Below the pieces are notes generated by a model, which searched no databases, had not been told where the DNA came from, and saw only the letters and a program-made list of their open reading frames with translations. A DNA stretch of 64,000 nucleotides from Mucilaginibacter sp. Bleaf8 (GTDB taxonomy: Bacteria > Bacteroidota > Bacteroidia > Sphingobacteriales > Sphingobacteriaceae). Where the stretch lies: the NCBI RefSeq assembly GCF_018390515.1, contig NZ_JAHBBK010000003.1:186001-250000 (forward strand), read 5' to 3'. Below, in pieces: positions 230 to 47,629 of this stretch. The position numbers were made by a program, and so were the translations under genes. The number at the start of each line of letters is the position of its first letter. Position 1 is the stretch's first letter.

Positions 230-230
230 T

Positions 231-1025: not shown

Positions 1026-1035
1026 TTAAGGTAAT

Positions 1036-1251
1036 ATGACTGATCCCATCGCCTACGATTACGTCAAACTCGTGCTGGAAGAGGAGTTCTGGGGCACCTA
1101 CCTGCGATTTTCCAATCATGGCATCTTACACTACGAGCTTACTAATATCCTCGAACTGTGCGCGCCCCTGGTCAAGGGGCTGGATGAGGACGACCGCTTC
1201 TTAAAATATGAAGTGATCGGCACTATCGCTGCTTATTTACAGGAGGTTTAG
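1036..1251 (+). CDS. Small hypothetical protein of the ICE transfer operon
   Basis: This 71-residue acidic, probably helical protein starts 10 bases after traN and ends immediately before the ATG of the next gene, so it is almost certainly co-transcribed with both. It has no signal peptide, membrane segment or cysteine motif that I recognise. I cannot assign a family. Its position between a channel component and the giant methylase/helicase suggests an accessory role in transfer or element maintenance, but that is inference. Confidence 0.6.
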   Translation: MTDPIAYDYVKLVLEEEFWGTYLRFSNHGILHYELTNILELCAPLVKGLDEDDRFLKYEVIGTIAAYLQEV

Positions 1252-4200: not shown

Positions 4201-6714
4201 GCCATGGAAATGAAACGGCTGGGCATCGTGCATAAGCCGATGATCATCGCGCTGAAAGCGAACGTGCAGCAGATCGCCGATACCTTCCGGCTGGCTTATC
4301 CGAAGGCTAAATTGCTGGCACCGGGTGAGAAAGATTTTGAACCGGCTAAACGCAGACGCATTTTCCACGAGATCAAAAATAATAACTGGGACTGCATCAT
4401 CCTGACCCACGACCAGTTTGGCAAGATTCCGCAGGCGCCCGAAATCCAGCGCCAGATCCTCGAAACAGAACTGGATAACACGGAACTTGATCTGCTGACC
4501 ATACAAAAATCCGGTGATGAGATCTCCCGTGAAATGCTGAAAGGGCTCGAAATACGCAAGGAAAACCTGGAGGCCAAATTGCAGGGCGTGATCTCCGCCA
4601 TAGAGGAGCGGAAAGACACCGGGATCAATTTCCGTGAAATGAATATCGACCACCTGTTCATCGACGAGTCCCATAAGTTCAAGAACCTGACGTTTACCAC
4701 CAGGCATACGAAAGTGGCCGGTCTGGGTAATATGGCCGGCAGTCAGAAGGCGCTGAACATGCTGTTCGCTATCCGTACGTTGCAGGAAAGGAATGATTCG
4801 GATCTCTGCGCGACCTTTTTATCCGGCACCCCAATATCGAACAGCCTGACCGAAATGTACCTTATCTTTAAGTATTTACGGCCCAGAGAACTTGAATGGC
4901 AGCAGATTTCCAACTTCGATGCCTGGGCGGCCGTATATGCGCGGAAAACGGTAGATTTTGAATTTAACGTCACAAACGAGATTAGGGCCAAAGAACGTTT
5001 CCGGCATTTCATTAAAGTACCGGAGCTGGCCTTATTCTATAACCAGATCACCGATTATAAAACCGCCCGGCATATCGGCCTGGACAAACCGGAGATCGAT
5101 GAGGTGCTGGTTAATATCAAACCGACGCCCGACCAGCAGGCTTTCATTAAACGGCTGATGCAGTTCGCGAAAACAGGCGACGCTACCCTCATTGGCCGAA
5201 ATCCATTGACGCGGGACGAAGATAAGGGCCGGATGCTGATTGCGACGAACTACGCCAAAAAAATGGCCGTGGATATGCGGCTGATCGACCCGGTAAGATT
5301 CGGCGACCATCCCGGGAACAAGGTCAATGTTTGCGCCAGGAACGTAGCAGCGATCTATCATGAAAGCACCCCGCACAGCGGGACACAGATCATTTTCAGC
5401 GATATCGGCACACCTAAAACCGGCGAGTTCAACATTTACGATGCCCTTCGTGATAAACTGGTTACCGATTTTGATGTCCCTGCCGCCCGGATTACGTTTA
5501 TCCACGACTGGTCAACTGACAAACAGCGGAAGGAACTCTTTAAGAAAATGAACGCCGGAGAAATCCGCATCCTGATCGGAAGTACGGAGAAGGCAGGAAC
5601 TGGTCTGAACGTTCAGCAGCGGATCGTCGCCATGCACCACCTGGATATCCCCTGGAAGCCTTCTGAGCTGGAACAACGGGATGGCAGAGGGGCCCGGCAG
5701 GGTAACTGGCTGGCGAAGATGCACTACGGGAATCAGGTCAAAAATTATATCTATGCCGTCGAGCAATCTTTAGACAACTATAAGTTTAACCTGCTTAAAA
5801 ATAAGCAGACCTTCATCAGTCAGATGAAAAACAATGAGTTAGCCAAGCGTACGCTGGACGAAGGCGCGATGGATGAACAAAACGGGATGAATTTCTCTGA
5901 ATACATCGCTATTTTATCGGGTGACACCTCCCTGCTGGAAAAGACCAGGATTGAAAAGAAGCTGGCCGAACTGGAGGGTTATAAAGCTGCTCATTTCAAA
6001 GAAGTCTCGCGCAGCCGCTACTTGCTGGACGATTTAAACAAAAGAAGCCGCGATACGAAAGCCACTTTGGAACTGGTCAAAGCGGACGAAACGGCTTACA
6101 AGTCCTTGCTGAAATATGATAACGATGGTGTCAAACTCAATCCGATCAGGCTGGCCGGCCTCCAGAGCGCGGATGCCGTCGCTATTGGTCAGCAATTGAT
6201 TCACCTCTATACGCACTGGACACCGGAGCAGCCCAGTCAAACCGACCATCACCTGGGTGAACTATATGGTTTTGATCTTTTTATCAGGCGAAAATTGCAA
6301 ACCCTGGATACGGTGTTTTCCGATAAGATCGAATTTGTGACCTCCCTATATGCCCAGAGCCGCGAGTCAGGCATCAAGTATATGCAAAACGGAGGCGCCC
6401 CGAATATTGATAACCCTAAACTGGCGGCGCGCTACTTCCTGAACGCCATCGACCGGGTGGTTGGCATGGCAGAGCGCTACGAAAAGGAACTTGCAGGTAT
6501 GGAGAAACAAATACCGGAAATCACCGCTTTGACCAAACGCCCTTTTGAACAGGAAGGGGAACTCGCTGCGCTGAAAAAAGATCTGGAAAAGCTGGAATTG
6601 GAAATCAGTCAAAAAATTGCAGAGGCGGAAACCAAACCCACCCCTGAGGAACAGCTGGTTCATGACGACGGTCCGGAAGAATCAGTCGCCATAAAGTCCG
6701 CAGTCAAACGGTGA
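1252..6714 (+). CDS. Giant N6-adenine DNA methylase / SNF2-type helicase fusion
   Basis: This 1820-residue protein carries an N-terminal methyltransferase core: AdoMet motif I (EPSAGAGIF, about residue 130) and a catalytic motif IV of the NPPF class read as NIPF (about residue 200). The C-terminal half is a superfamily 2 helicase: Walker A (GLGKT, about 972-976), Walker B as DESH (about 1137), motif III (SGTPISNS, about 1190) and motif VI ([11 protein letters not shown], about 1473), then a long coiled-coil-like tail. Such fusions are common cargo of Bacteroidetes conjugative elements and are thought to protect or process incoming element DNA. The start follows an AGGAGG-like ribosome site overlapping the upstream stop. 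Function is inferred from domains. Confidence 0.85.
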
Positions 6715-6840
6715 ACAACCCTTTGAAGGGCCTAGCCATCCTTGCATCACCACCTGCAACAACTGGTGGTTTTAGATTGCAGTTCCTATCACTTGAAAGA
6801 TTAGTGTAGCTAATCCCTTTTCACTTTAAACAAATTACAT
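6715..6840. promoter_or_regulatory. Intergenic region with hairpin terminator and palindrome
   Basis: The 126-base gap separates the methylase/helicase gene from the coupling-protein gene. ACCACC (6749-6754) pairs with GGTGGT (6765-6770) and is followed by a short T run, a weak intrinsic terminator. A second inverted repeat, GATTAG/CTAATC at 6799-6815, lies about 25 bases before the next ATG and could be an operator or a leader hairpin. The boundary suggests a new transcription unit begins at 6841. Confidence 0.45.
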
Positions 6841-8841
6841 ATGGAAGAAACGCGGGATCAGCAAAAACTCCACGGTTTCCTGCAATGCGGCATTTATCTG
6901 TCGCTCCTGCTGGAAGCTGCTATTTTTATTTATCATGATGCCCCTTTCTGGGGCATTTTTTTTACCCCGCTGGATAGATTATCTCATCTCTTTATTTATT
7001 CCAGCCTGGTCTATAGTAAACTGGCAACGTTTAGCCTCATCTGCCTGGTCAGCATCGGTACGCTGGCAAAAAAGAAAACAGACCTTGACCCCAAAAAGCA
7101 TATCGCTTATCCGATGTTGATCGGCATGTTGCTGTTCTTCGGCAGTATCATTTATTATGGTCGTCCCTCGCCGCTCGCATTGGCTTATACGTCCTGGTTT
7201 AACCTGCTGTATATGGTATGCTCCTTTACCGGGGCACTCATGGTCAGCGTTTCGATGGATAATGTCTCCAAGTTCATCCGGTCGGGATTAGGCAAGGACA
7301 AATGGAATACGGAAGCGGAAAGCTTTATGCAGCCCGTCAAGAAGGTAGAAACGCCTTATTCCGTGAACATCCCCATGCTGTTTTACTATAAAGGGAAGGT
7401 CAGGAACGGCTGGATCAACATCTGTAATGTCTTCCGGGGTACTATGGTAATCGGCACGCCCGGAAGCGGCAAAAGCTTTTCGGTGGTCAATCCTTTTATC
7501 CGTCAGCTGGTCGCCAAGGAATTCGCCGTTTGTCTTTATGATTTCAAGTTTCCCGATCTCGGGCAGATCGCTTATTACCATTACCTGCTGGCCAAGCAGA
7601 ACGGTAAGCTGAAGGGTTACGCCTTTCATGTCATCAATCTGAATGACATGGAAAAAAGCCGGCGGATCAATCCCTGGCGGGCCGATTATATCCGCTCCCT
7701 GGCTGACGCCGCAGAAACGGCAGAGGCACTGGTCGAAGCGCTGAAGAAAGGGGATCGCTCCGGTGGCAGCGATCAGTTTTTTACACAATCCGCCATTAAT
7801 TTTCTGGCATCCTGTGTCTACTTCATGAGTAAGTACAAGAATGGCATCTATTCCAGCTTCCCCCATGTGCTGGCCTTGCTCAACCGGAGTTATGAAGAAA
7901 TCTTCGGTGCCCTGACTTCTGAACCCGAACTCAAGCCGCTGTTGTCGCCTTTTATGACGGCCTACAACGCGAAGGCCTTTGACCAGCTGGAGGGGCAGAT
8001 CGGCACCTTGAAAATCTTTATCAGCCGGCTGGCCACCAAGGAAACGTACTGGGTCTTTTCCGGCGATGATTTTAACCTGAAGATTTCCGCCAGAGATAAT
8101 CCGGGCATGCTGGTGCTGGCCAATGACCCCAACACCCAAAACATCAACTCCGCCTGTTACTCCATTATTATCAACCGGCTGACCAAGCTGATCAATACCA
8201 AAGGCAATCTGCCTTCCGCCCTGATCGTCGATGAGGTGCCGACCCTGTTCGTGCATCGCGTGGAGAACCTGATCGCGACGGCCCGCTCCAATAAAGTAGC
8301 CGTGCTGATGGGCCTGCAGGAATTGCCGCAGTTTAATCAGCAGTACGGAAAGGATACGGCGGCAACCATTACAGCGGTGGTCGGCAGTGTTTTGTCGGGC
8401 TCGGTCAGAAATAAAGAGACGCTGGAATGGCTGGAACGCCTGTTCGGCAAATCGAAACAACTGGGCGAAGGCTTGTCCATTGACCGGAACAAGACGTCCA
8501 CTTCCCTGAATGAAAAACTGGAGGTCCTGATCCCGGCAGGCAAGATCGCCTCGCTGAACGCCGGGGAAATGGTCGGCATGATCGCTGCCGATGCCCAGGA
8601 AAAATTCACCGGGCAGTTTGAAACTTCAGCCGTCAATTGCCGCATTAACCTGGACATGACGGAGATCAGGCGCGAGGAGAAAGGTTACCGACCGCTGCCG
8701 TCCTATTATGATTTTGATGGTAAGGCCGACGAGAAACTGCGCCAGAACTTCAACGTCATCACGCAGCAAATTCAGGAAATGGTCCTCGCCTTTACGATTC
8801 CGGCTCCGCCCGGACCGGTTAAAACGACTTTAAGAAAATGA
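6841..8841 (+). CDS. Type IV coupling protein (VirD4/TraG family, MobC-like)
   Basis: This 666-residue protein has about four N-terminal membrane segments (between residues 15 and 140) followed by a P-loop ATPase domain with Walker A GTPGSGKSF (about 205-213) and Walker B LIVDEVPTLF (about 461-470). This is the layout of VirD4/TraG coupling proteins, which dock the relaxase-DNA complex at the inner membrane and pump it into the conjugation channel. In Bacteroidetes elements the equivalent is often called MobC. No relaxase gene is visible in the window, so it must lie further left. The next gene overlaps its stop by 4 bases. Confidence 0.88.
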   Translation: MEETRDQQKLHGFLQCGIYLSLLLEAAIFIYHDAPFWGIFFTPLDRLSHLFIYSSLVYSKLATFSLICLVSIGTLAKKKTDLDPKKHIAYPMLIGMLLFFGSIIYYGRPSPLALAYTSWFNLLYMVCSFTGALMVSVSMDNVSKFIRSGLGKDKWNTEAESFMQPVKKVETPYSVNIPMLFYYKGKVRNGWINICNVFRGTMVIGTPGSGKSFSVVNPFIRQLVAKEFAVCLYDFKFPDLGQIAYYHYLLAKQNGKLKGYAFHVINLNDMEKSRRINPWRADYIRSLADAAETAEALVEALKKGDRSGGSDQFFTQSAINFLASCVYFMSKYKNGIYSSFPHVLALLNRSYEEIFGALTSEPELKPLLSPFMTAYNAKAFDQLEGQIGTLKIFISRLATKETYWVFSGDDFNLKISARDNPGMLVLANDPNTQNINSACYSIIINRLTKLINTKGNLPSALIVDEVPTLFVHRVENLIATARSNKVAVLMGLQELPQFNQQYGKDTAATITAVVGSVLSGSVRNKETLEWLERLFGKSKQLGEGLSIDRNKTSTSLNEKLEVLIPAGKIASLNAGEMVGMIAADAQEKFTGQFETSAVNCRINLDMTEIRREEKGYRPLPSYYDFDGKADEKLRQNFNVITQQIQEMVLAFTIPAPPGPVKTTLRK

Positions 8842-9251
8842 TCAACGAAGAAAATTTACGGGGTACGATCGTCATGATGCACCCGGAAATGTGGGAAGCC
8901 CATGCCGACAAACAGGGCGTGATCGGTGAGATCCTGAAAGCCGACCCCGCCAGGGACGATTTCTATGTAACCTACGGCGGCCCCCAGCCACACCTGCACG
9001 GCAGTGATGCGCTGATGGTCCTGAAGCCGGCCGATGAGATCATGGAATACCTGCAAAACCACTCGATTGACCTGACGCCCTACGACCTTCAGGATCTCAG
9101 GTCCATAGCACGCCTGGTCCACCACGGTACACCCAAACATCTGCGCAGCGCCCTGGAGCTGGTACGGGATAACGAAAACATCCGCGAACAAAGCGTGAGC
9201 AGCCTCGAAGAGGTATTGGGCCTTAAACAGGCCAAAAGCATCAAACGCTGA
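8838..9251 (+). CDS. ICE hypothetical protein, paralogue A
   Basis: This 137-residue soluble protein overlaps the coupling-protein stop by 4 bases (ATGA) and so is translationally coupled to it. It is clearly related to the gene at 9321: both begin with a (G/S)-(T/S)-(I/L)-V-x-x-HP segment, carry a Q-G-x-(I/V)-G segment about 15 residues later, and end with a helical half containing ALE(L/M)xRDN. The N-terminal half has the feel of a small beta-barrel such as an SH3-like or KOW fold. I recognise no named family. Coupling to the T4CP gene suggests an accessory to DNA transfer. Confidence 0.7.
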   Translation: MINEENLRGTIVMMHPEMWEAHADKQGVIGEILKADPARDDFYVTYGGPQPHLHGSDALMVLKPADEIMEYLQNHSIDLTPYDLQDLRSIARLVHHGTPKHLRSALELVRDNENIREQSVSSLEEVLGLKQAKSIKR

Positions 9252-9320
9252 TGCAGGCCCTCCGGAGCGCATAACCGCATCCGGCGGGGCCGGAAACAAT
9301 CCATTTTAAAAATCAATGCA

Positions 9321-9728
9321 ATGAAAAACGAAAGTTTAACCGGATCGCTGGTTTTGGTCCATCCAGATTTTAAAGACGACCCGGTCCAAAGACAGGGCCA
9401 GGTTGGCGTCATGACCTATCCGCGGGAACTCAATGAAATGTATGTTTCGTTTCCCGGCGGCGGCGAAGGCGTTTATTCCTGGGATACCCTGCTGAAGCTG
9501 AAGGACAAGCAGGATATCGTCAGGAATCTGACATCCAACGGCTCGGCCATGCCGGAAAATGATTTTAAGGCCCTTTACAAAATCATGCTGCTGATGGACC
9601 GGGGTACCAGTCTGGGAACCCTGTCCGCGCTGGAAATGGCCCGCGACAATCCCAGTGTATGGGAAAGGGCGCTGGATCCCGTCCGGCAGATCGAACGGCT
9701 GGATGCCCATAAAAGTTACGGCCGTTGA
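9321..9728 (+). CDS. ICE hypothetical protein, paralogue B
   Basis: This 135-residue protein is the tandem paralogue of the gene at 8838, sharing the LVHP opening, the QGQVGV segment and the C-terminal ALEMARDN motif. The two are separated by 69 bases and are diverged well beyond a recent duplication. There is no signal peptide or membrane segment. The stop overlaps the TTG start of the following peptidase gene. Function unknown. Confidence 0.7.
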   Translation: MKNESLTGSLVLVHPDFKDDPVQRQGQVGVMTYPRELNEMYVSFPGGGEGVYSWDTLLKLKDKQDIVRNLTSNGSAMPENDFKALYKIMLLMDRGTSLGTLSALEMARDNPSVWERALDPVRQIERLDAHKSYGR

Positions 9729-10207
9729 AATTCCTTTTCAGTCTCTGTATAGTCTGCCTGCCGCTTAAACACCTGCACATCAACTCCGGGTTTGGATACC
9801 GGGTACATCCCCTCAGCGGCAGATACATCCTGCATGAGGGTATCGACCTTCGGGCCCGGCATGATACCGTTTATGCAATCCTGAATGGCGTGGTCACTAC
9901 CACCGGGTACCAGGAGGGGTTAGGGGTCTATATCCGGCTGACGCACGGTGAGGTGCAATCCGTCTACGGGCATCTTAGCCAGGTAATGGTTGGCGCAGGA
10001 GAAAGCGTTTCTGCCGGTGAACCGATCGGTATCACCGGCGCCACGGGCCGGGTAACCGGCGAACACCTGCACTTCAGTATCCGTTACCGGCAGCGGCCTG
10101 TCAATCCCATTCAATTTTTATATGTAATGCTAACAAAAATCGAAAATGAGCAAAAATTTCAAAGCACTTCCCGTGCTGCTTTCGGAAAAGCTGATCGGGG
10201 AAATTAA
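9725..10207 (+). CDS. M23-family (LytM-like) peptidoglycan endopeptidase
   Basis: This 160-residue protein contains the M23 zinc peptidase core: SGFGYRVHP, HEGID (first His and Asp ligands), then HLHF (the HxH motif) near residue 120. M23 enzymes cut peptide cross-links in peptidoglycan; in conjugative elements such enzymes are thought to open the wall for the channel. A short hydrophobic N-terminus could direct export. The start is a TTG at 9725 overlapping the previous stop, the only start that keeps the N-terminal hydrophobic segment. The 3' end overlaps the next gene by 62 bases. Confidence 0.8.
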   Translation: MKFLFSLCIVCLPLKHLHINSGFGYRVHPLSGRYILHEGIDLRARHDTVYAILNGVVTTTGYQEGLGVYIRLTHGEVQSVYGHLSQVMVGAGESVSAGEPIGITGATGRVTGEHLHFSIRYRQRPVNPIQFLYVMLTKIENEQKFQSTSRAAFGKADRGN

Positions 10208-11315
10208 GAGCGGGAACTCGCTGTTCCAGAAACCCTTCAAAGAAAACGGCATGCCCGCTTTTGTCGCACCGGTCAACCCGACGACCGGCAAAGGGTACAG
10301 CGCGCTCAACGCGCTCGCCTTAGGGATGCAGCGCCATGATGATCCGCGCTGGATGTCTGCCGATGCCGCCCGTTATGCCAATTCATGGGTAAAGAAGGAC
10401 GAAAAAGGCACGCTGATCGAGTTCCCAAAGACCAGCGACATCCAGGCCATCCGTACCGCGGACGGCAAACGCATCCAGGACGAGGCCGGGGTGACGCAAA
10501 CCAAAACCGTCACCTTCGACAAACCGCAGGCCGCTAAAGCCTTCCTTTTCAATGGCAGCCAGCTCAATGACCTGCTGCCCCTGGAGGAATACCTGCAGCA
10601 ACAAAACGCAGCACAGCCCTTGTCACCTCTGGAAAGGGCGGAGAAGCTAGTTGCTGACAGCAAAGCGGTCATTATCCATGGTGGACAGGAGGCTTATTAC
10701 GATAAGCAGCGTGATGCGATCTTCCTGCCGGAAATGGAGCAGTTTGAAAACGAGACCAAATACTACCAGGCGGCCGTTCATCAGCTGGCACACTGGTCCG
10801 GGCACGAGAGCCGCCTCAACCGCCCGATGGAAGGCAAGCTGGGATCGCTGGAGTATGCCCGCGAGGAAATGCGCGCCGCCATTGCCGGCATCCTGATTGG
10901 CGCGGAATTAAAGATCGGGCACCACTTCGGCCAGCAGGCCGCCTACATGAACAACTTCGTAAAAATCTTACAGGACGATCCCTTTGAAATTGCGCGTGCT
11001 GCCCGGGACGCCCAAAAAGCGGCCAACCTGTTGCTGGGGGTCGGCCCGAAGCGCGAACAGAAACAGGGGCCCGCCACTAACCAGGGATTTAAGAAAGGCG
11101 ATGAGATCGCTTACCTGGATACTTCCTACAAAGTGCTGGAAACCTACAAAAATAAAAGCGTCAAGGTAGAGGACGCCAGCGGTACCCGCAAAAATATCAA
11201 ACCTTCGGACGGGCTTTACAACTCCTTGCTGGAAGCCAGGAATCATCCGAGGGAACCGGAAATGGCATTGGAAGAAAGCCGGGAAACAGCGCAAACTTAT
11301 AAAATAGGCAGATAA
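10146..11315 (+). CDS. ArdC-like antirestriction protein with degenerate zincin domain
   Basis: This 389-residue protein has the ArdC N-terminal ssDNA-binding region (GKGYSALNALALGMQ…, then DPRWMS) and a C-terminal zincin-like domain. The canonical zincin motif HExxH is HQLAH here (His212, Gln213, His216; WSGH follows), and the downstream third-ligand segment reads EEMRAAIAG instead of the usual EELxAE form. Both the catalytic glutamate and the usual third ligand therefore seem lost, so protease activity is doubtful while DNA binding may persist. ArdC proteins protect incoming single-stranded plasmid or ICE DNA from restriction. A KOW-like tail follows. It is co-transcribed with its neighbours. 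Confidence 0.8.
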   Translation: MSKNFKALPVLLSEKLIGEIKSGNSLFQKPFKENGMPAFVAPVNPTTGKGYSALNALALGMQRHDDPRWMSADAARYANSWVKKDEKGTLIEFPKTSDIQAIRTADGKRIQDEAGVTQTKTVTFDKPQAAKAFLFNGSQLNDLLPLEEYLQQQNAAQPLSPLERAEKLVADSKAVIIHGGQEAYYDKQRDAIFLPEMEQFENETKYYQAAVHQLAHWSGHESRLNRPMEGKLGSLEYAREEMRAAIAGILIGAELKIGHHFGQQAAYMNNFVKILQDDPFEIARAARDAQKAANLLLGVGPKREQKQGPATNQGFKKGDEIAYLDTSYKVLETYKNKSVKVEDASGTRKNIKPSDGLYNSLLEARNHPREPEMALEESRETAQTYKIGR

Positions 11316-11316
11316 C

Positions 11317-12093
11317 ATGAACCTGATCCATTATACTGAAAATGAGCTTCCGATCCAGGATCTGGAAACCATCGGGCTGGCCGCGAATGGCCAGCTCCTG
11401 CTGAATGTCGACGACCTGAGAGCCCTGCTCTCCGGGAGGAGAACAGGTATCCTGGAGTTAAACGACCTGGAGGCCGAAAACATCAAAATCAAATCGATCC
11501 ACGCCAAAATTTCCCTGCAGCCGAATCAGGCAGGCCAAGTCGATTTGCTGATCCACCCGATTTATCGCAAAGCGGTTACCCCGGATTTTCTGGACGACAA
11601 TGAGGCACAGCAGCTACAGAAAGGCGAAGTTGCCAGCCTTCTGAAGATTACCATTGATGACAGGGGCAATAAAAAGGAGTTGCTCGTGGAGTATGATGCC
11701 GAGACCCGAGAGTATATCGTCTCCGATACGGAAAAGATCCTGGCACCGGATATGGTCAACAATGAATTTCTGACACCTGCGCAGAAGGAAAATTACCGCA
11801 AGGGCAAAGAAGTCCAGATTGCTGATGGTACCAAACTGGCGTATTCAGGCGTTGATCATCACGGCATCCGTTCCAATAAATTGGCGCTGGTTGCTTCGAT
11901 CCTGATCGATGGCGGACTTTCCTATATGGTGTATAAAGGACTGAATGCCCTGTTCAATCAAAAGCGGGACGGCAAAGCCGCTGAAAAACTAAGTCCTGGC
12001 TACTACAACGCACTGAAAGACGTCGAAAATCAGCGTCAGTTCCTGCCTAACCCATTTACCCGGTCCGCCGGACGCGGCAGTAGTTCACGCTGA
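11317..12093 (+). CDS. DUF4099/DUF3945 domain protein of conjugative elements
   Basis: This 258-residue protein starts one base after the ArdC-like stop. Residues 1-110 match the DUF4099 pattern (LETIGL…LLSGRRT…KISL…DLLIHP). The middle resembles DUF3945 (…FLTPAQKENYRKGKEVQI…). A short hydrophobic stretch (LALVASILIDGGLSYMVYKG, about 190-210) may be a membrane anchor. These domains are found almost only in Bacteroidetes mobile elements and their biochemical role is unknown. The stop overlaps the next start. Confidence 0.75.
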   Translation: MNLIHYTENELPIQDLETIGLAANGQLLLNVDDLRALLSGRRTGILELNDLEAENIKIKSIHAKISLQPNQAGQVDLLIHPIYRKAVTPDFLDDNEAQQLQKGEVASLLKITIDDRGNKKELLVEYDAETREYIVSDTEKILAPDMVNNEFLTPAQKENYRKGKEVQIADGTKLAYSGVDHHGIRSNKLALVASILIDGGLSYMVYKGLNALFNQKRDGKAAEKLSPGYYNALKDVENQRQFLPNPFTRSAGRGSSSR

Positions 12094-12686
12094 TGATCGC
12101 TGCGCTTGATCATTTAGGTGTGCCGCCGGAGATGCAGGCTTACTTCAACTTGAATGAATTGGTCTTCCACTATGGCACGGACACAGAAGAGTTTGGCAAC
12201 GGGTTCCACAAGGTGCCGACCACCGGCAACCTCTGGTTAGCCGGGCCGGATGTTGCTTCGGAAGTTGTCATCACCAATTCCGCTATGGAAGCCATCGCTT
12301 TTCTGACGCTGCAACGGCCACGTTATCCCAAGCTGGATCACGTGGCCTTCATCGCTATTGGTAACCAGCTGCAACCCGGCCAGGTGGACTGGATCAGCCG
12401 CCACTTCCCCAAACGCAAATTTACGCTGGTATTTGGCAACGATCTCGTCGGCAACATGACGGATATTAAACTTGCCACCGGCTTGAAGGGCATGCGCTTT
12501 CGGTTGCTTCATGTCCGTCATCAAACCATGATCATGAACATTGAGAAACTGGAAATATTTGAAGACAGCAAGATTACCCTGAGCGTTTTTGAAAGAGCTT
12601 TTGGCCTCCGAACGGGTATCCGGACGCGCAAGCCGATCTTACACAGTTCCTATTTAAATCAATTACAACATGACAACAACCGATGA
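12093..12686 (+). CDS. ICE protein with possible degenerate Toprim-like domain
   Basis: This 197-residue protein begins on the last base of the previous gene. The order ITNSAMEAIAFLTL … FTLVFGNDLVGNMTDIKLA resembles the two halves of Toprim-like domains in element-borne primases (ESPIDALSYL … FDNDxxG). The first-motif glutamate is replaced by Asn and only one acidic residue of the second motif remains, so catalytic activity is unlikely if the fold is right. The assignment is a motif-based inference. It overlaps the next gene by 17 bases. Confidence 0.5.
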   Translation: MIAALDHLGVPPEMQAYFNLNELVFHYGTDTEEFGNGFHKVPTTGNLWLAGPDVASEVVITNSAMEAIAFLTLQRPRYPKLDHVAFIAIGNQLQPGQVDWISRHFPKRKFTLVFGNDLVGNMTDIKLATGLKGMRFRLLHVRHQTMIMNIEKLEIFEDSKITLSVFERAFGLRTGIRTRKPILHSSYLNQLQHDNNR

Positions 12687-13128
12687 TATTGTGCTCCGGC
12701 CTGCCGTAAGTTTTGCTTTCCTGCAGGTATTGCCGCTGATCCTGTTTAGCCTGACGTTTCTTCTACTGGCCTGGTACCTGTCACCTTATTTTATTTTTTT
12801 CAGCATTCCGGTATGTGCGGCCGCAGGATACCGAATGTGGTATATCAGGAGTATGCAATACCTGATCAGCAGGGAGTATATCCGCCTGACCAGGGGACTT
12901 TTATTCAAGCGGGTAGATCAGCTGGAAATGTACCGTATCAAAGACTTCATCATTACGCAACCTTTCAGTTTACAATTGCTTCGATTGATGAACCTTACCC
13001 TGAAGAGTACAGACACCGAAAATGCAGTGATCACTTTCCATGGCATTCCTTTTTCCGAAATTACAGATACGATCCGGGAGCGGGTACAGGAGGCCCGTCA
13101 TGGCAATAATATTTACGAAATAAATTGA
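12670..13128 (+). CDS. Membrane protein with bacterial PH domain (YdbS-like)
   Basis: This 152-residue protein has two adjacent membrane segments (about residues 15-60) followed by a bacterial PH-like domain of the YdbS type (YLISREYIRLTRGLLFKRVDQLEMYRIKDF…). It should sit in the inner membrane with the PH domain in the cytoplasm. YdbS-like proteins are poorly characterised. It ends the long run of overlapping element genes from 8838. Confidence 0.65.
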   Translation: MTTTDDIVLRPAVSFAFLQVLPLILFSLTFLLLAWYLSPYFIFFSIPVCAAAGYRMWYIRSMQYLISREYIRLTRGLLFKRVDQLEMYRIKDFIITQPFSLQLLRLMNLTLKSTDTENAVITFHGIPFSEITDTIRERVQEARHGNNIYEIN

Positions 13129-13182
13129 AAATGCACTTTAGGTTACTAATTAATTTAGTATCTTAAAATAACCGAAAGTATC

Positions 13183-13482
13183 ATGAAAGCAATTGTTCGC
13201 AACGTCTTGTTAGCTTGTTTTATATCCACTTTTGCCTTGTTTGGCTTGTTAGGGAGGAAGAAGGAGCCTGTGCTGGCACCGGCGCATTACCAGGCAGCGC
13301 AGCCTTTGATCACCGAAGTACAAAAAGAAAACCTGACCTGCCTTGGTGTGGCCCTGCTAACCTGGGTGCTGTGTATCTGGCGGTGTGCCGTGCTCAATAA
13401 ACGCATGAGTGATGAGCGCGAATACCAGCGGCGTTTTAATGACTACATGCGTGAGTCCGCTTTTAACCGTCATTTATATTGA
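13183..13482 (+). CDS. Small two-helix membrane protein, hypothetical
   Basis: This 99-residue protein has one hydrophobic segment at residues 8-24 and another at about 52-68, with a charged Arg/Glu/Tyr-rich C-terminal tail. No family is recognised. The stop codon lies in the hairpin CCGTCA/TGACGG (13467-13485), which also overlaps the promoter of the small RNA candidate downstream. Confidence 0.55.
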   Translation: MKAIVRNVLLACFISTFALFGLLGRKKEPVLAPAHYQAAQPLITEVQKENLTCLGVALLTWVLCIWRCAVLNKRMSDEREYQRRFNDYMRESAFNRHLY

Positions 13483-13508
13483 CGGCAATAAAATAATTGA
13501 TAAGTTTA
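13479..13508 (+). promoter_or_regulatory. Promoter of the ICE-borne small RNA candidate
   Basis: TTG at 13479-13481 is followed after exactly 19 bases by TAAGTTTA at 13501-13508. This matches the Bacteroidetes consensus TTG-N17-23-TAnnTTTG except for the last base. Transcription would start at about 13515, just before the first hairpin of the candidate RNA. Confidence 0.55.
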
Positions 13509-13514
13509 CAGCCT

Positions 13515-13594
13515 TAAGCGGGTCTTCGCCCGCAATTGTGATAAGGTTTAGGTTGAAAGGTCCCGGCGGCGAGCGTACGGGACCTTTCTTTTTT
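13515..13594 (+). ncRNA. Candidate small RNA, ICE copy
   Basis: This roughly 80-nt segment consists of a hairpin (GCGGG/CCCGC, 13518-13533), a core at 13534-13559 that includes GATAAGGTTTAGGTTG, and a strong terminator whose 10-bp stem AAAGGTCCCG/CGGGACCTTT (13556-13565 with 13578-13587) is followed by a T tract. The same 26-nt core, between different hairpins, recurs at 51506-51531 in the chromosome. Identity confined to the core, with compensated but unrelated stem sequences, points to a selected RNA. No open frame with a ribosome site covers it. I cannot name an RNA family. Confidence 0.65.
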
Positions 13595-13705
13595 GCTCAA
13601 TTTTTTTGTCGCTTGCTTTATGAAGCACGAGATTTCTTGAGAAATGACGAGACCCGTACTGCGATTGCAATATGGGCATTGAAGATTTTTATTCAATGGC
13701 TACCC

Positions 13706-13918
13706 ATGAAAGATAAGTTAGGATCCTCAACGGAGGAAAAAGATCAGAACAACCCCTCCACAAACAAAAAATCTCCCAAAATCGGCAAAGTGATAGTCCC
13801 TAAGGAGCCGGTGAAAAGATACCGCGTGACAGTACATTACTTGCCAGTCACGGAAGAGGAAGCCCGGATTAAAAAGGCTATTATCGAGAGCATTATGAAA
13901 AAGACGCCTCCTAAGTAA
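13706..13918 (+). CDS. Small charged hypothetical protein
   Basis: This predicted 70-residue protein is rich in Lys, Glu, Ser and Pro, with a disordered-looking first half and a helical C-terminus (EEEARIKKAIIESIM). The frame is open back to 13409, but that upstream part crosses the small RNA and its terminator, so the ATG at 13706 is preferred. It lies after the RNA terminator and 136 bases before the recombinase gene. No family is recognised and coding status is moderately supported. Confidence 0.4.
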   Translation: MKDKLGSSTEEKDQNNPSTNKKSPKIGKVIVPKEPVKRYRVTVHYLPVTEEEARIKKAIIESIMKKTPPK

Positions 13919-14054
13919 TAGTCAATTGCGTCTATAAATTACAAGATTAACGGAAGGAGATAATTGTTAAATACTTGATAATTAGGATATTATGAAGATT
14001 TCAGCTTGATTTTCTGAAATTTAATTCTTAATTTAGGCAACAGAACATCAGATC

Positions 14055-15545
14055 ATGGAAGAGAAAAAGCACGTTGGTATTTGGATCAGGGTTTCCACGG
14101 ACATGCAGGTTAAGGATGATAGTCCGGAACATCACGAGCGCAGGGCACGGTATTACGTAGAATCTAGGGATTGGCAGGTCGTCGAAGTGTATAGATTGGA
14201 GGCTGTGTCAGGGAAAACGGTCATGAATCACCCGGAAGCGCAGCGAATGCTCAAAGACTTAAGAAGCGGGCGCATTTCCGGCCTGGTATTTTCCAAACTT
14301 GCCCGCCTTGCCCGTAGTACCAAAGAACTTCTGGAATTTGCAGAGATATTTCGAAAAGAGGGCGCAGACCTGGTTTCGTTGGCAGAACAGATCGATACTA
14401 GCACACCAGCCGGCAGGCTGTTTTTTACGATAGTCGCTGCAATGGCGGAATGGGAACGGGAGGAAATATCCAGTCGTGTTTCAGCGTCAGTTCCCATCCG
14501 CGCGAAGATGGGGAAACCGCTGGGTGGACAGGCTAGCTTTGGTTATAAATGGCAGGACAAATCAATGGTAATCGATGAGAAAGAGGCTCCGATTCGCAAA
14601 CTGATGTACGAGATCTTCCTGGAATGTCAGCGCAAAAAAACAACTGCCGAAAGGTTAAATGAGCTGGGGCATCGAACCCGGAATGGTTCTCGTTTCTCCG
14701 ATACCACAATTGACCGGCTATTAAGGGATACCACCGCAAAAGGTCAGCGACTCGCTAATCACACCAAGAGCATCGGAGAGGGTAGGCAATGGATTACCAA
14801 GCCACAGGAGGAATGGATTATCATTCCCTGTCCCTCTATTGTTTCAGAAGAATTATGGGAAAAGTGTAATGCTGTCCTCGATGAACAATCCACCAAACGC
14901 GCCAAGAGGGGTAGGATATCAGAATACCTGCTCGCCGGTTTGGTTAAGTGTGAATGTGGTACACCTATGTATGTGTTCAGTACAGCTAAGAAATTTACCT
15001 GCAGAAAATGCAAGAACAATGTCAGGGTGTCAGATATGGATAATTATTACCAGCAAGTCCTTAAAGGATATCTGAATGATATTCAACCTCAGATGTATGT
15101 TGAAGAACTGGAGGCGGACATACGGGTAAAAGAAGGCTTATTAAGCGCTTCCTTGAAAAAGCGTACCCAACTGCGAAAAAAAATGGACGAATTGGTCCCC
15201 TTAAGGGTAAGCGGGGATCTTGACAAAGAGCATTTTGCTGAGATCTACCAACCACTTGTCACGCAAGTGCATCAACTTGACAGATCTATACCGGAACTGC
15301 AGGCAGAGATCGATCTAAAGCGTGTGCAGGTTACCTCAGCTGACCATGTCCTTAAAGAAGCAAAAGGCTTATACAAAGCTTGGTCGAGCATGCTTTTTTC
15401 TCAAAAACGCCCTATAGTTGAGACAATCACAGAATATATTACTATTGGAAAAGAGACGATCGACGTAGGAATTCACCATGTTTCTTCATCCTCGAAACTA
15501 ACAAGTCAACACGAATTCAAGGGTTCATGGAGGCCACCAGCATAA
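14055..15545 (+). CDS. Large serine recombinase (ICE integrase)
   Basis: This 496-residue protein has an N-terminal resolvase domain with catalytic Ser14 in WIRVST and the conserved arginines of [10 protein letters not shown] recombinase domain follows (about 170-280), then a zinc ribbon (CxCG…CRKC, about 299-322) and a C-terminal coiled coil (about 360-440). This is the architecture of large serine integrases such as those of phiC31 and Tn5397, which recombine short att sites without long homology. It lies at the element edge, convergent with the yifB remnant it has interrupted. The last few codons and the stop lie in yifB-derived DNA, so excision would alter the C-terminus. Confidence 0.9.
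15514..15530. other. ICE-chromosome junction (att site) inside yifB
   Basis: Reading the minus strand, yifB is normal up to VASMNP and then meets a TGA at 15517-15519, where the family continues with CPCG. The boundary between host and element DNA therefore lies near 15520-15523, within GGGTTCATGG on the plus strand. The exact crossover dinucleotide cannot be fixed without the other end of the element. Confidence 0.65.
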
Positions 15546-39525: not shown

Positions 39526-40518
39526 TTACAGGCCCAGCTGTGCCGAAATATCCAGCATGCGTTCAATCGGCTTCACAGCTTTCTCAATAATATCAGCCGG
39601 AAGGGTGATTTCGGGCATTTCGTTTTTAAGGCATAAATAAAGCTTCTCCAGCGTATTTCTTTTCATGTGGGGGCAATCATTGCATGCACAGGTGTTGTTA
39701 GGCGGAGCGGGGATAAAAACCTTATCTGGGTTATCCTTTTCCATCTGGTGTAATATGCCAGCTTCGGTTGCCACAATAAATTCTTTATCGGTGCTTTTGG
39801 TAGCGTAATTCAAAATACCGGTGGTAGAGCCAATATAATCGGCCAGCTGCAGTATCGTTTCTTCGCACTCGGGATGGGCAAGTATTTTAGCATCCGGGTG
39901 GCGCTCCTTCAGCTTGGTGATCTTTTCGCGTGAAAAGATTTCGTGTACCATACAGGCTCCGTTCCATAGTACCAAATCGCGACCGGTCTTTTTAGCCACG
40001 TAAGCACCCAGGTTACGGTCGGGCCCGAATATAATTTTCTGATCAGCAGGTAAGCTTTCTACTATCTGTACAGCATTGCTTGAGGTACAAACAATATCGC
40101 TCATTGCTTTAAGCTCGGCAGTGCAGTTTACATAAGTAATTACCAGGTGATCGGGATACGACTCCTTAAACTTTTTGAATAGATGCGGTGGGCAGCTATC
40201 GGCCAGTGAGCAGCCTGCTTTGATATCGGGCAGCAAAACCTTCTTGGTAGGGGAGAGGATCTTGGCTGTTTCGGCCATAAAGTGTACGCCGGCAAATACA
40301 ATAATATCGGCATCCGTTTTAGCCGCCTGTTGTGACAGGCCCAGGCTGTCGCCTATGTAATCGGCTATGTCCTGTATCTCACCTTCCTGGTAGTAATGCG
40401 CAAGGATAACGGCATTCTTCTGCTTCTTTAATTTTTCTATCTCGGCATACAGGTCAAGCGTCGGGTCTACTTCTTCCTCAACAAAACCTTTTACATTAAT
40501 TTCTTCTAAAACGTCCAT
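39526..40518 (-). CDS. nadA: Quinolinate synthase NadA
   Basis: This 330-residue enzyme condenses iminoaspartate with dihydroxyacetone phosphate to quinolinate using a [4Fe-4S] cluster. Conserved segments include [43 protein letters not shown] and [14 protein letters not shown], among which the cluster cysteines lie. The ATG at 40518 (MDVLEEINV) is preferred over an upstream start that adds a hydrophobic Asn/Ile-rich run. It is divergent from nadB across a 409-base region that looks like an origin. Confidence 0.95.
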
Positions 40519-40589
40519 TCTTAACAGTTCAATAAATACAATATTATTATTTATATAAATCTTCTTATTGTTTATTAGCATGTGAATTG

Positions 40590-40900
40590 TGTGGGTAACT
40601 CCTGCTAATTTTTTCTTGTTTTTAAGTTATCACTGTTTTATTAACAGGTTATCCACACAGGTAAAAAGGTAATAGATTGATATTGAATACATAAACGTTA
40701 TTCACATACTGTTAATAACTCAAAATGTGAAATAATACCATGTTTTTAAAATGTGAATTGTTACGTGAATTTCTCTCCAAAGTTCGTGCCTTTTGCGGAA
40801 AACTTTTGTTTATACACAGAGTTATCCACAGCGCAGAAAGTTATTAGCTTTTTACTTACGCAAAATTAACATCTTTTAACGCGGTTATCCACACAAGTAG
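40590..40900. other. oriC: Candidate chromosomal origin: DnaA-box cluster
   Basis: The nadA-nadB intergenic region contains TTATCCACA at 40649-40657, 40822-40830 and 40885-40893, TTATTCACA at 40698-40706 and TTATACACA at 40810-40818. All five match TTATNCACA and lie on one strand. A one-mismatch copy lies on the other strand at 40590-40598. The stretch 40670-40760 is very AT-rich, as expected of an unwinding element. Two parS-like sites and mnmG, classic origin neighbours, lie about 5-7 kb away. Origin function is inferred. Confidence 0.7.
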
Positions 40901-40927
40901 TACTTTTACACATCTTAGACGTTATTT

Positions 40928-42520
40928 ATGACAAAAAATGTGGATTTCTTGGTGATAGGTTCTGGTATCGCCGGATTGAGTTTTGCCCTTAAGGCTGCCA
41001 AACATGGTAAGGTTCTGATAGTTACAAAGGCAAATGAAGATGAGTCGAACACTAAGTATGCCCAGGGAGGGGTTGCTGTAGTTGTGGATAACGTTGGTGA
41101 TTCTTTCAAAAAGCATATTGAAGACACCCTGATTGCCGGCGATGGCCTGTGCGACGAGGAAGTGGTGCGGATTGTGGTAGAAGAAGGGCCGGAGCGCATT
41201 AAAGAAATTATAGATTACGGCACCAACTTCGATAAAAACAAAGAAGGGTATTATGACCTGGCAAAAGAAGGTGGTCACTCCGAATACCGGGTACTACATT
41301 ATAAGGACATTACCGGTTTTGAAATGGAGCGCGCCCTGCTGGAGCAGATCCACAAAAATCCGAATATTGAAATTTTAACCCATCACTTTGCGGTTGATTT
41401 AATTACGCAGCACCACCTGGGTCAGTTTGTTACCCGGTCAACTCCGGATACAGCCTGCTATGGAATTTATGCATTCAATACCGAAACCCGCGAAGTAGAT
41501 ACCATATTATCCAAAGTAACGGTAATGGCATCGGGCGGTGCCGGTCATATTTATGCTATTACCACCAACCCGGTTATTGCCACGGGCGATGGTGTTGCCA
41601 TGGTGTACCGTGCTAAAGGTAAGGTGCGCAATATGGAGTTTATACAGTTTCACCCTACTGCGCTGTACAACCCGGGCGAGTATCCGTCTTTTTTAATCTC
41701 GGAAGCAGTGCGTGGTTTTGGCGGTATACTTAAACGTACCAATGGCGAAGAGTTTATGCAGGAGTACGATCCGCGAAAATCGTTAGCCCCGCGAGATATT
41801 GTGGCCCGTGCTATTGATGCGGAAATAAAAAAATCGGGTGAGGACTACGTTTATTTAGATGTACGTCATAAAAGCAAGGCCGAAATTTTAGCCCATTTCC
41901 CTAACATCTATGCCCGTTGCCTGGACATAGGTATTGATATGACTAAAGATATGATCCCCGTATCGCCGGCTTGCCATTACATGTGCGGCGGTATTATGGT
42001 CGATCATGTAGGCCGCTCGTCTATCCAGCAGCTGTATGCCTGCGGCGAATGTTCATCAACTGGCCTGCATGGTGCTAACAGATTGGCATCCAACTCTTTA
42101 TTAGAGGCGTTGGTGTTTGCACACCGTATTTATGAAGATGCCATTGCTAATTTTGACAATTACTACATACCTGAAAATATTCCGGACTGGGACGAAAAGG
42201 GCGTACAGCTCTCGAACGAGGATATTTTGGTAACGCATAATATCCGCGAAATGCAGAAACTGATGAACGATTATGTGGGTATTGTACGTTCCGATTTTCG
42301 TTTAGAAAGGGCCATGCGCCGCTTGCGTTTACTGTATGAAGAGACTGAAGAGTTTTATAAGCGTACCAAGCTTTCTGTAAAATTATGTGAGCTGCGCAAT
42401 TTGATACAGGTATCGTATCTGGTAGTCAAATCGGCCATGATGCGTAAGGAGAGCCGGGGTTTGCATTATACTACGGATTACCTGAAGCATGCAGAGGTGT
42501 TGGAGGATACGGTAATTTAA
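40928..42520 (+). CDS. nadB: L-aspartate oxidase NadB
   Basis: This 530-residue FAD enzyme oxidises L-aspartate to iminoaspartate, the substrate of NadA. It has the FAD-binding VIGSGIAGLSFAL start, the KYAQGGVAVV segment, the catalytic region around HPTALYNPG and the HGANRLASNSLLEALVF motif. The length is normal. It is divergent from nadA, so the two NAD biosynthesis genes flank the putative origin. The NADAR gene follows 4 bases later. Confidence 0.95.
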   Translation: MTKNVDFLVIGSGIAGLSFALKAAKHGKVLIVTKANEDESNTKYAQGGVAVVVDNVGDSFKKHIEDTLIAGDGLCDEEVVRIVVEEGPERIKEIIDYGTNFDKNKEGYYDLAKEGGHSEYRVLHYKDITGFEMERALLEQIHKNPNIEILTHHFAVDLITQHHLGQFVTRSTPDTACYGIYAFNTETREVDTILSKVTVMASGGAGHIYAITTNPVIATGDGVAMVYRAKGKVRNMEFIQFHPTALYNPGEYPSFLISEAVRGFGGILKRTNGEEFMQEYDPRKSLAPRDIVARAIDAEIKKSGEDYVYLDVRHKSKAEILAHFPNIYARCLDIGIDMTKDMIPVSPACHYMCGGIMVDHVGRSSIQQLYACGECSSTGLHGANRLASNSLLEALVFAHRIYEDAIANFDNYYIPENIPDWDEKGVQLSNEDILVTHNIREMQKLMNDYVGIVRSDFRLERAMRRLRLLYEETEEFYKRTKLSVKLCELRNLIQVSYLVVKSAMMRKESRGLHYTTDYLKHAEVLEDTVI

Positions 42521-42524
42521 AAGT

Positions 42525-43283
42525 ATGGCTAAGTATGATATAGAGTGGCTAATTAATCAGTATGAAATCAACCCTGAAATTGACTTTCTATTCTTTTGGG
42601 GGCATAGTGCTAAATATGCAGAAACAGGTAAATCTTGTTTAAGTCAGTGGTATGAACTGCCATTTATTGTAAATGATGTTACCTATTTAACAGCCGAACA
42701 CTGGATGATGGCGGCCAAGGCCATATTATTTGGTGATAGTATAGCTTATAAAAGTATTATTGATAGTAAAACCGCGGGTAAAGCTAAACACATAGGGCAG
42801 CAAATTAAAAACTTCGACTCTGATATTTGGGATGCATACAAACATGAAATTGTTGTAAATGGGAATGTGCATAAATTCAATCAGCATCCCAGATTGGCAA
42901 AATACCTTATTTCTACTGGCAACCAAATCTTAGTTGAGGCGAGTCCAATAGACACCATATGGGGAATTGGCTTAGCGGCAGATGATGAAAACAGTACTAT
43001 TCCTTATTGCTGGAGAGGTACAAATTTATTAGGATTTGCATTAATGGAGGTAAGAGAATTTCTATCAGATTTTGGAAAATTTGATTATCTGAAAACTGAC
43101 ATACAGTTGCCGTGGGTACTACATCCATGCAAAGATTCGGCAGATATGTATTGGCGAATGGGTGAGGGCGAAAACATTATAGATACTTTTAATAAGTATT
43201 ATCTGTCTTTAACTGATAGAGAAAAGACGATTTTCAGATTAATGCATCCATTACCAAGCGAATGGCAACATTTCTTATTATAA
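42525..43283 (+). CDS. NADAR-family protein with C-terminal extension
   Basis: This 252-residue protein has the NADAR (YbiA-like) core at residues 15-170: FLFFWGHSA…LSQWYELPF, LTAEHWMMAAKAILFGD and the late ASPIDTIWGIGLAADD. About 80 extra residues follow (FDYLKTDIQLPWVLHPC…YWRMGEGE…), a module I do not recognise. NADAR enzymes hydrolyse N-glycosidic bonds in ADP-ribose-linked metabolites or ADP-ribosylated guanine. The gene is distinctly more AT-rich than nadB, from which it is separated by 4 bases, so it may be a later arrival using the nadB promoter. The function of the extension is unknown. Confidence 0.82.
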   Translation: MAKYDIEWLINQYEINPEIDFLFFWGHSAKYAETGKSCLSQWYELPFIVNDVTYLTAEHWMMAAKAILFGDSIAYKSIIDSKTAGKAKHIGQQIKNFDSDIWDAYKHEIVVNGNVHKFNQHPRLAKYLISTGNQILVEASPIDTIWGIGLAADDENSTIPYCWRGTNLLGFALMEVREFLSDFGKFDYLKTDIQLPWVLHPCKDSADMYWRMGEGENIIDTFNKYYLSLTDREKTIFRLMHPLPSEWQHFLL

Positions 43284-45695: not shown

Positions 45696-47558
45696 TTACC
45701 TGGATATATGCACCATCAGCACAGATATGTCTGAAGGTGATACACCTGATATACGTGAAGCCTGGCCTAAAGTGCGTGGCTTAATACGCATCAACTTTTC
45801 CCGAGCTTCTTTTGACAGCGATACCAATTGCTGATAGTTGAAGTCGGGATTAATTTCCTTATCCTCCATCTTCCGCATCTTCTCTACAATCTCCAGCTCC
45901 TTATCAAAATAACTCTCGTATTTAATTTTTATTTCAGCCTGCTCAATAGTTTCCTTATCATATGCTGAAAGTAATAAAGCTAATGACTCATCAGCTTTCC
46001 TTAAATCATTAAAAGAAACCTGAGGGCGGCTAAGTAACGAAAACAATCTAACATTTTGAGAAAGCGGGGATGTGCCTAATTCATCCAATAATGTATTTAC
46101 TTGTCCTGCTTCTACCGACTTGTTTTTGGTGTAAGCTACAATTTCATCAGAGTTTTTTACTTTTTGTTTTACTTTGTCTAAACGCTCATCACTTATCAAG
46201 CCCAACTCATGGCCAGTAGGGGAGAGGCGAATATCAGCATTATCCTGACGAAGCAACAACCGATGTTCGGCACGTGAGGTAAACATACGGTAAGGCTCTT
46301 CGGTACCTTTTGTAATCAGGTCATCAATCAACACACCGATGTATGATTCTGATCTTTTTAAAATCAGCTCGTGTAAATCATGTACTTTTTGGTGTGCATT
46401 TATACCTGCCATTAAACCTTGTGATGCAGCTTCCTCATAACCTGTGGTACCATTAATCTGGCCAGCTAAAAATAAGTTGCTGATCAGTTTTGTTTCCAGG
46501 GTAGCCTGTAATTGGGTAGGCGGAAAATAATCATATTCTATAGCATAGCCTGGGCGGAACATCTTTGCTTTTTCAAAGCCTGGTATTTGCTGCAATGCCC
46601 GGTATTGTACATCCTCTGGTAATGAAGTAGAAAATCCGTTTACGTAAATCTCAACGGTATTGAAACCTTCTGGCTCTACGAAAATCTGGTGACGTTCGCG
46701 TTCTGCAAACCGGTTAATTTTATCTTCAATAGAAGGGCAGTAGCGTGGACCTAAACCTTTGATGCGCCCGGTAAACATGGGCGATTTTTCGAAACCTTCT
46801 TTCAAAGTTTCATGTACGGCAGCATTAGTATACGTAATCCAGCAGCAACGTTTCTCGGTTGGGCGTTCGACATCGGTGTAGGAGAAGCGACCGGGATCTT
46901 CATCACCCCATTGTTCTTCCATTACACTATAGTTCAAACTACGGCCGTCAATACGAGGGGGAGTACCGGTTTTCATCCGTCCTGCTTCAAACCCTAATTC
47001 AACTAATTGCTCAGTTAAACCGGTAGCAGATTTTTCACCGGTACGGCCACCGCCGAAACGTTTCTCGCCGATATGAATTACACCGTTTAAGAAGGTACCA
47101 TTAGTAAGTACTACGGCACTACATTCAATCTCTATACCGAGTGAAGTGCGTACACCACATACGGTGTTATTTTTTACTACTAATGATGTAACCGTATCTT
47201 GCCAAATGTCTAAGTTGTCTGTTTGCTCTAAAGTTAGCCGCCATTCTTCGGCAAAGCGCATACGATCATTTTGTGAGCGTGGGCTCCACATTGCCGGTCC
47301 TTTTGACAGGTTAAGCATCCGGAACTGAATGGTGGTTTTATCAGCGATGATACCAGAGTATCCACCGAGTGCATCTACCTCTCTTACTATTTGTCCTTTT
47401 GCTACGCCACCCATTGCCGGGTTACAACTCATTTGTGCAATGGTGCCCATGTTCATTGTAATCAGCAAAACTGACGATCCCATGTTGGCTGCTGCTGCCG
47501 CTGCTTCACAACCAGCATGACCTGCTCCAGCCACTATTACATCATATTTTTTAAACAT
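45696..47558 (-). CDS. mnmG: tRNA uridine-5-carboxymethylaminomethyl modification enzyme MnmG (GidA)
   Basis: This 620-residue FAD protein begins with [20 protein letters not shown] and carries the conserved [24 protein letters not shown] and [15 protein letters not shown] segments. With MnmE it installs (carboxymethyl)aminomethyl groups at wobble uridines of certain tRNAs. Its leader contains two parS-like sites. In many bacteria gidA lies beside oriC, consistent with the DnaA boxes found 5 kb to the left. Confidence 0.96.
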
Positions 47559-47569
47559 CTATACCTCCA

Positions 47570-47585
47570 TGTTCCACGTGGAACT
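47570..47585. other. parS: parS-like centromere site 1
   Basis: TGTTCCACGTGGAACT is 15/16 of the palindromic parS variant TGTTCCACGTGGAACA bound by ParB/Spo0J. It begins 12 bases before the mnmG start, in its mRNA leader. Confidence 0.75.
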
Positions 47586-47613: not shown

Positions 47614-47629
47614 TGTTTCACGTGAAACT
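47614..47629. other. parS: parS-like centromere site 2
   Basis: TGTTTCACGTGAAACT differs from the consensus parS palindrome TGTTTCACGTGAAACA at only the last base. Its centre lies 44 bases from the centre of site 1. Confidence 0.8.

Follow-up and report, generated by a model that had tools for sequence, protein, structure and literature searches.

Does the short intergenic region between the divergent NAD-synthesis genes nadA and nadB serve as the replication origin of the Mucilaginibacter sp. Bleaf8 chromosome, given that dnaA, whose adjacency is a common and not an obligatory feature of an oriC, lies on another contig? The window analysed here is a stretch of 64,000 nucleotides (C11:186001–250000) from a draft genome of 5.03 Mb in 17 contigs, and positions below are those of the window unless a contig is named. 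Judged by NadB identity, the closest relatives that carry a name are Mucilaginibacter. An origin between nadA and nadB was the original prediction for this DNA, and that placement is now supported by a cluster of DnaA boxes, a pair of parS-like sites, an unstable duplex, an approximate switch in corrected GC skew, gene order across the family and a comparable module in a second family. Judged from its sequence, the entire intergenic region (40519–40927) is very probably the chromosomal oriC. The kind of oriC is a known one; the parts that deserve specialist attention are its address at nadA in two families and the turnover of its boxes.

The divergent nadA and nadB, mnmG and two parS-like sites were all recovered where they had been placed (Table 1). 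The nadA start was set at 40518, since this start is common to relatives, which have the equivalent codon; the ORF-caller start at 40581 is simply the first start codon and is probably too long. An ORF from 40581 would cross the proposed unwinding element. The gene immediately after nadB (42525–43283) matches TIGR02464 (riboflavin-intermediate N-glycosidase) above cut-off and, more weakly and below that model's cut-off, a NADAR anti-phage model. Some 50–65 nt 5' of nadB, at 40862–40876, stands AAAATTAACATCTTT, for which many relatives have homologues (AACATCTTT in 14 of 37 intergenic regions); this element may be a promoter or other binding site.

Table 1. Features of the proposed origin and its surroundings, in window positions.
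Feature	Positions	Strand	Basis or remark
nadA, quinolinate synthase	39526–40518	-	NCBIfam NF006878 above cut-off, scanned as 39526–40581
Proposed oriC, entire divergent nadA–nadB intergenic region	40519–40927		409 bp, 29% GC
Proposed DNA unwinding element	40537–40576		least stable 40 bp of region
CTAATAAACAATA, conserved core / possible DnaA-trio stretch	40566–40578	-	sequence comparison
Box-like site CAATTCACA	40581–40589	-	position where many relatives end CYAACA or TCCACA
Box-like site TTACCCACA	40590–40598	-	sequence comparison
Box-like site TTATTAACA	40638–40646	+	TTAYTAACA in 9/9 aligned genus sequences, window included
DnaA box TTATCCACA	40649–40657	+	sequence match
DnaA box TTATTCACA	40698–40706	+	sequence match
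Box-like site TTATTAACA	40710–40718	-	base-by-base scan
DnaA box TTATACACA	40810–40818	+	sequence match
DnaA box TTATCCACA	40822–40830	+	5/8 aligned relatives retain TTATCCAC, one with final A
DnaA box TTATCCACA	40885–40893	+	TTRTTAACA in 7/8 aligned relatives
nadB, L-aspartate oxidase	40928–42520	+	NCBIfam NF006567 above cut-off
Sixth box, TTATCCACA, within nadB	41083–41091	-	sequence match
mnmG	45696–47558	-	TIGR00136 above cut-off
parS-like site	47570–47585		one mismatch to TGTTNCACGTGNAACA
parS-like site	47614–47629		one mismatch to TGTTNCACGTGNAACA

The five TTATNCACA boxes reported on one strand within 245 bases, three of them the perfect TTATCCACA, were all found. Shuffling predicts 2.9 TTATNCACA matches in the window, which holds eight; one shuffle in 100 had that many, so the total is mildly high, and the notable feature is the clustering of the matches. 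Genome-wide, TTATNCACA occurs at 253 places versus 132 for the backwards pattern. The perfect TTATCCACA is found 67 times in the genome, with four copies inside 443 bp at nadA–nadB, and the next densest group, on C10, has three in 2.1 kb. Uniform random placement of 67 copies would be expected to yield about 2e-6 groups as tight as that at nadA–nadB, none of 2000 simulations gave one, and across all 17 contigs this is the only tight TTATCCACA cluster. The locus therefore has the chromosome's unique DnaA-box cluster that an oriC would be expected to have, genome-wide for TTATCCACA and within the 1.2 Mb scanned for TTATNCACA.

DnaA-box clusters can also act as titration sites, and it might be supposed that nadA–nadB is such a site, or one otherwise regulated by DnaA, while oriC lies elsewhere in the origin region, either around 200 kb on C11 or close to dnaA. 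Against this, a base-by-base scan of 1.2 Mb of the genome (800 kb of C11, taking in all of its first 400 kb, and 400 kb of C1) held no further 400-bp stretch with more than two TTATNCACA boxes, and the 4.4-kb dnaA locus held none at all. Strand asymmetry is where an origin elsewhere finds its footing. The raw cumulative GC skew over C11 1–400 kb has its minimum at 324.6 kb, 98 kb from the candidate origin (226.7 kb), and the skew check proposed with the original prediction thus went against it on the raw curve; once gene strand was corrected for, the switch was within about 27 kb of the candidate. Genes at about 290–350 kb of C11 run mostly on one strand, and the raw curve was dropped as arbiter because gene orientation confounds it; a per-gene fit with gene-strand and replication-side terms was used instead, on 565 genes (C11 1–400 kb whole, the rest sampled). 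The best negative-to-positive switch on C11 in this fit fell at 200 kb, with 226.7 kb 3.8 log units worse and 324.6 kb 12.0 worse; the bootstrap quartiles were 200 and 220 kb, and the 97.5% point was 550 kb. Leaving out the GC-rich, conjugative-looking block at 158–201.6 kb moved the best switch to 205 kb (support 155–225 kb, 226.7 kb at -2.2), and leaving out 115–201.6 kb again gave 205 kb, with support widened to 110–545 kb. The switch is near, and not at, the candidate spot (200–205 kb versus 226.7 kb of C11), and the point estimate of 200 kb, or the raw 324.6 kb, could be taken to favour an origin elsewhere. However, 200 kb is the edge of the foreign-looking block, and with the box scan also standing against it, an origin elsewhere in this region appears very improbable.

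Sampling of the unordered draft, which took in 20 stretches of C1 and 11 of C10 and none of C2–C9 or C16, showed no second sustained negative-to-positive switch; isolated reversals occur on C1 from 0.5 to 0.6 Mb and on C10 at 260 kb (-0.045, error 0.028). The raw skew of C1 is positive up to 0.4 Mb, mixed at 0.5–0.6 and negative from 0.7 Mb onward, and this region of sign change is likely the terminus region. Two relatives assembled as single contigs switch near nadB at a resolution of about 100 kb: corrected skew in G021 is -0.053 at 2.96 Mb, +0.009 at 3.105 and +0.031 at 3.33 (nadB at 3.12), and in G028 it is -0.018 at 1.52 Mb and +0.049 at 1.60 (nadB at 1.53). G028 is slightly positive on the wrong side at 1.2–1.36 Mb (points at 1.205 and 1.34 Mb), within error, and in both genomes several arm stretches are near zero or wrong-signed, within about 1.5 errors.

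The GC-rich block (about 0.50–0.55) occupies 198–15545 of the window and reaches back upstream as far as about 160 kb of C11. It encodes a DUF4138 protein, an 1820-aa helicase-like protein, a TraG/TrwB coupling protein, an ArdC-like protein and a serine recombinase, and it looks like an integrated conjugative element whose end is about 25 kb from the origin.

A nearby parS is likewise a common, if not obligatory, companion of an oriC. The two parS-like sites, 44 bp apart beside mnmG and 6.7 kb from the proposed oriC, are the genome's only such places at no more than one mismatch (the backwards control gave one place). Boxes, parS and mnmG had been counted as independent lines of evidence, a claim that does not extend to mnmG, because the parS sites abut it. 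The sole match to the parB family is on C1. The separation of dnaA from nadB recurs in all eight single-contig relatives, in which the two genes are unlinked and 0.5–2.1 Mb apart by the shorter way round (G021, 0.9 Mb; G022, 1.2; G023, 0.7; G027, 0.5; G028, 2.1; G031, 0.75; G036, 0.6; G009, 1.3).

The AT-rich stretch beside the boxes is real, but its weakest part, 40537–40576, lies outside the span of 40590–40900 first assigned to the origin; that span contains the five plus-strand boxes and leaves most of the likely unwinding module outside. This module likely occupies the minus strand at 40537–40598 and combines two box-like sites, CTAATAAACAATA and the unstable 40 bp, the order along that strand between 40518 and 40600 being TTACCCACA, CAATTCACA, CTAATAAACAATA and TTTATATAA. 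The segment 40537–40576 is one of four separate 40-bp places in 400 kb that are equally or more unstable, itself counted, and provides the easily melted AT-rich stretch near boxes that is a further feature of an oriC; the weakest duplex adjoins the minus-strand box-like sites. In the 1.6 Mb of the genome examined, CTAATAAACAATA occurs once, at the nadA edge. A trinucleotide stretch past the last plus-strand box, at the nadB end, was noticed by eye in several Mucilaginibacter and was rejected as the unwinding site because it is absent in the Pedobacter rows viewed and the duplex is less weak there.

The arrangement resembles the basal origin unwinding system (BUS) of Bacillus subtilis oriC, in which one or more DnaA boxes are followed by a short spacer and an opposite-strand trinucleotide stretch with a middle A (PMC8287927). 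The boxes there occur most often in tandem, with the upstream box closer to consensus, and the BUS rule, a loose one, calls for a DnaA box with up to two mismatches, a spacer of 0–16 and at least three trinucleotides with a middle A (PMC8287927). By eye, the present genome has TTACCCACA, an 8-nt spacer and three middle-A trinucleotide units, which would make it a possible case under this loose rule. It differs from the B. subtilis case in that dnaA is not adjacent and the trinucleotides are degenerate (by eye, CTAATAAACAATA has at most three repeats). The region would work as a DnaA-dependent oriC whose unwinding module may be BUS-like. We infer that DnaA, made from its unlinked gene, would bind both the plus-strand box array and the minus-strand pair at 40581–40598, and would spread from that pair over the CTAATAAACAATA stretch; the AT-rich duplex would open at 40537–40576, where helicase would be loaded in both directions, and ParB, bound at the parS pair 6.7 kb away, would segregate the new origins.

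Gene order around this module is conserved. Among the best 80 nadB loci, content and title assign 25 to Sphingobacteriaceae; in 24 of these nadA and nadB diverge (the contig of the 25th ends first), and parS stands beside mnmG in all 20 that reach the mnmG 5' end. Sites resembling parS were present in 114 of 114 genus genomes searched, the present one included, and most of G001–G036 have one parS cluster, a few (such as G003, G031 and G033) having an extra distant site. Comparison of 12 same-genus genomes placed the parS cluster within 7 kb of nadB in every one, on the opposite side in G023.

It could also be argued that there is no origin here and that both the boxes and the minus-strand element serve the divergent NAD-synthesis genes as operators or promoters. 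The region is indeed a divergent promoter region, and conservation of the minus-strand module may be partly that of a promoter, because in this genus the module begins some 80 nt ahead of the start of nadA. Yet in the other 55 of the best 80 nadB loci none had boxes within 700 nt, nadA or parS in the sequence covered (3 of the 55 cover less than 700 nt upstream), and the distribution of the module in other families bears further on this point.

The order and family names of these other groups are taken from record titles or are presumed. Eleven Chitinophagales genomes were reached via named loci, and in them nadB is located elsewhere than nadA. Nine of them have a parS match at up to one mismatch, and in eight of these nine such a match lies 2–9 kb from nadA; in four of the eight it is a one-mismatch site, and scattered one-mismatch sites occur as well in some genomes. 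In 10 of the 11, inspection by eye finds a similar module ahead of nadA; it begins 80–120 nt before the gene and has a pair of box-like sites, a short spacer, repeats resembling CTAATAGTARTR and an AT-rich stretch. The trinucleotide stretch (CTAATAGTARTR) is clear in these genomes, and the architecture, again by eye, is close to that described for the BUS (PMC8287927). In G115 and G118 the nadA module is present and no parS-like site occurs at up to one mismatch. Five further genomes (group f2) have the module in four cases, by eye, and parS within 10 kb in one.

A pattern written for the module had exact matches at the nadA of 11 genomes among these 16 and a one-mismatch match there in 1 more; away from nadA there were 2 exact matches in all, and one-mismatch matches were as frequent as with the backwards control. 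The same pattern had no match at nadA in the present genome or in G126, a member of its family. A profile trained on 11 Chitinophagales and f2 rows and applied to 38 held-out Sphingobacteriaceae regions exceeded a 99% shuffle threshold on the right strand in 20 of them and on the other strand in 1; the window's own module falls below this threshold, and its best-scoring place is the expected spot. The unusual address of the origin seems to be common to a second family, and nadA together with parS/mnmG offers simple markers to try for origin finding in the two families.

A nadA match was found in 116 of 148 phylum genomes, of which 20 were examined. In 14 genomes of other families (outside f1/f2), the profile passed upstream of nadA in 1 and parS was within 10 kb in none; nadA as a phylum-wide origin marker is unsupported, and these counts also argue against a module that simply serves as operator or promoter of nadA. 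Taibaiella chishuiensis (G121) points the same way: its nadA lies some 471 kb away from the parS cluster and is without the module, and a one-mismatch module match is 4.3 kb from parS, an arrangement that would fit an origin element and not a nadA promoter, and that is suggestive only, because that genome has three such matches. Taken with the nadB loci outside the family, operators or promoters with no origin would be a most unlikely account of the nadA–nadB region.

The boxes of the proposed origin drift. Strict TTATNCACA is retained in just 13 of 37 Sphingobacteriaceae intergenic regions, window included, and its conservation was rejected as a test of the origin, being absent in most relatives. 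Across eight aligned Mucilaginibacter relatives, the boxes at 40649, 40698 and 40810 are mostly not retained, and the site of the box at 40885 reads TTRTTAACA in seven and TTTCTAACA in one; G033, the closest relative by NadB, retains four strict boxes. In the same 37 regions, which are not independent because the sequences are related, TTATCCACA occurs 18 times versus 0.1 in shuffles, every one on the nadB-ward strand, TTATTAACA 33 times versus 1.9, and TTRYTAACA 63 times versus 4.0. An altered DnaA as the driver of this drift is unsupported: the domain IV stretch is nearly identical across 12 same-genus genomes, and the RKREIVQARQ and GGRDHSTV segments, which we take to be the box-reading parts, are without difference. 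From these words it would appear that either DnaA here recognises both TTATCCACA-type and TTRYTAACA words, or the TTRYTAACA sites serve another role.

We tentatively entertain the possibility that the origin core upstream of nadA is a unit that Sphingobacteriaceae and Chitinophagaceae both inherited from their common ancestor, and that the box array around it has been shifting between TTATCCACA-type and TTRYTAACA-type words with the DNA-reading part of DnaA unchanged. If this reading is true, oriC here would be an instance of binding-site turnover under a constant initiator. The relatives also form a natural series in which to ask how DnaA recognises the two types of site.

Elizabethkingia meningoseptica is a member of the Bacteroidota. 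Its predicted oriC, which the record has about 1.9 Mb away from dnaA, contains three TTATCCACA-like boxes and two AT-rich elements (PMC8994065); the nadA–nadB region is like it in its cluster of TTATCCACA-like boxes, its AT-rich DNA and its distance from dnaA, and unlike it in belonging to a different family. The present call uses criteria shared with Ori-Finder and DoriC, which are skew, a box cluster, indicator genes and DnaA-trios; for cyanobacteria, drift of the boxes and an origin distant from dnaA are reported there (PMC10225481, PMC6323995). Elsewhere oriC is put at dnaA by convention, as in PMC5771137. Among the matches listed in the open-access literature, no title or abstract placed an origin at nadA in Sphingobacteriaceae or Chitinophagaceae. 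With the present placement, origin coordinates become available for a genus whose single-contig records can start at dnaA: that of G009 does so (dnaA at base 225) and has nadB and parS at 5.81 Mb, so that its base 1 and the likely origin are about 1.3 Mb apart.
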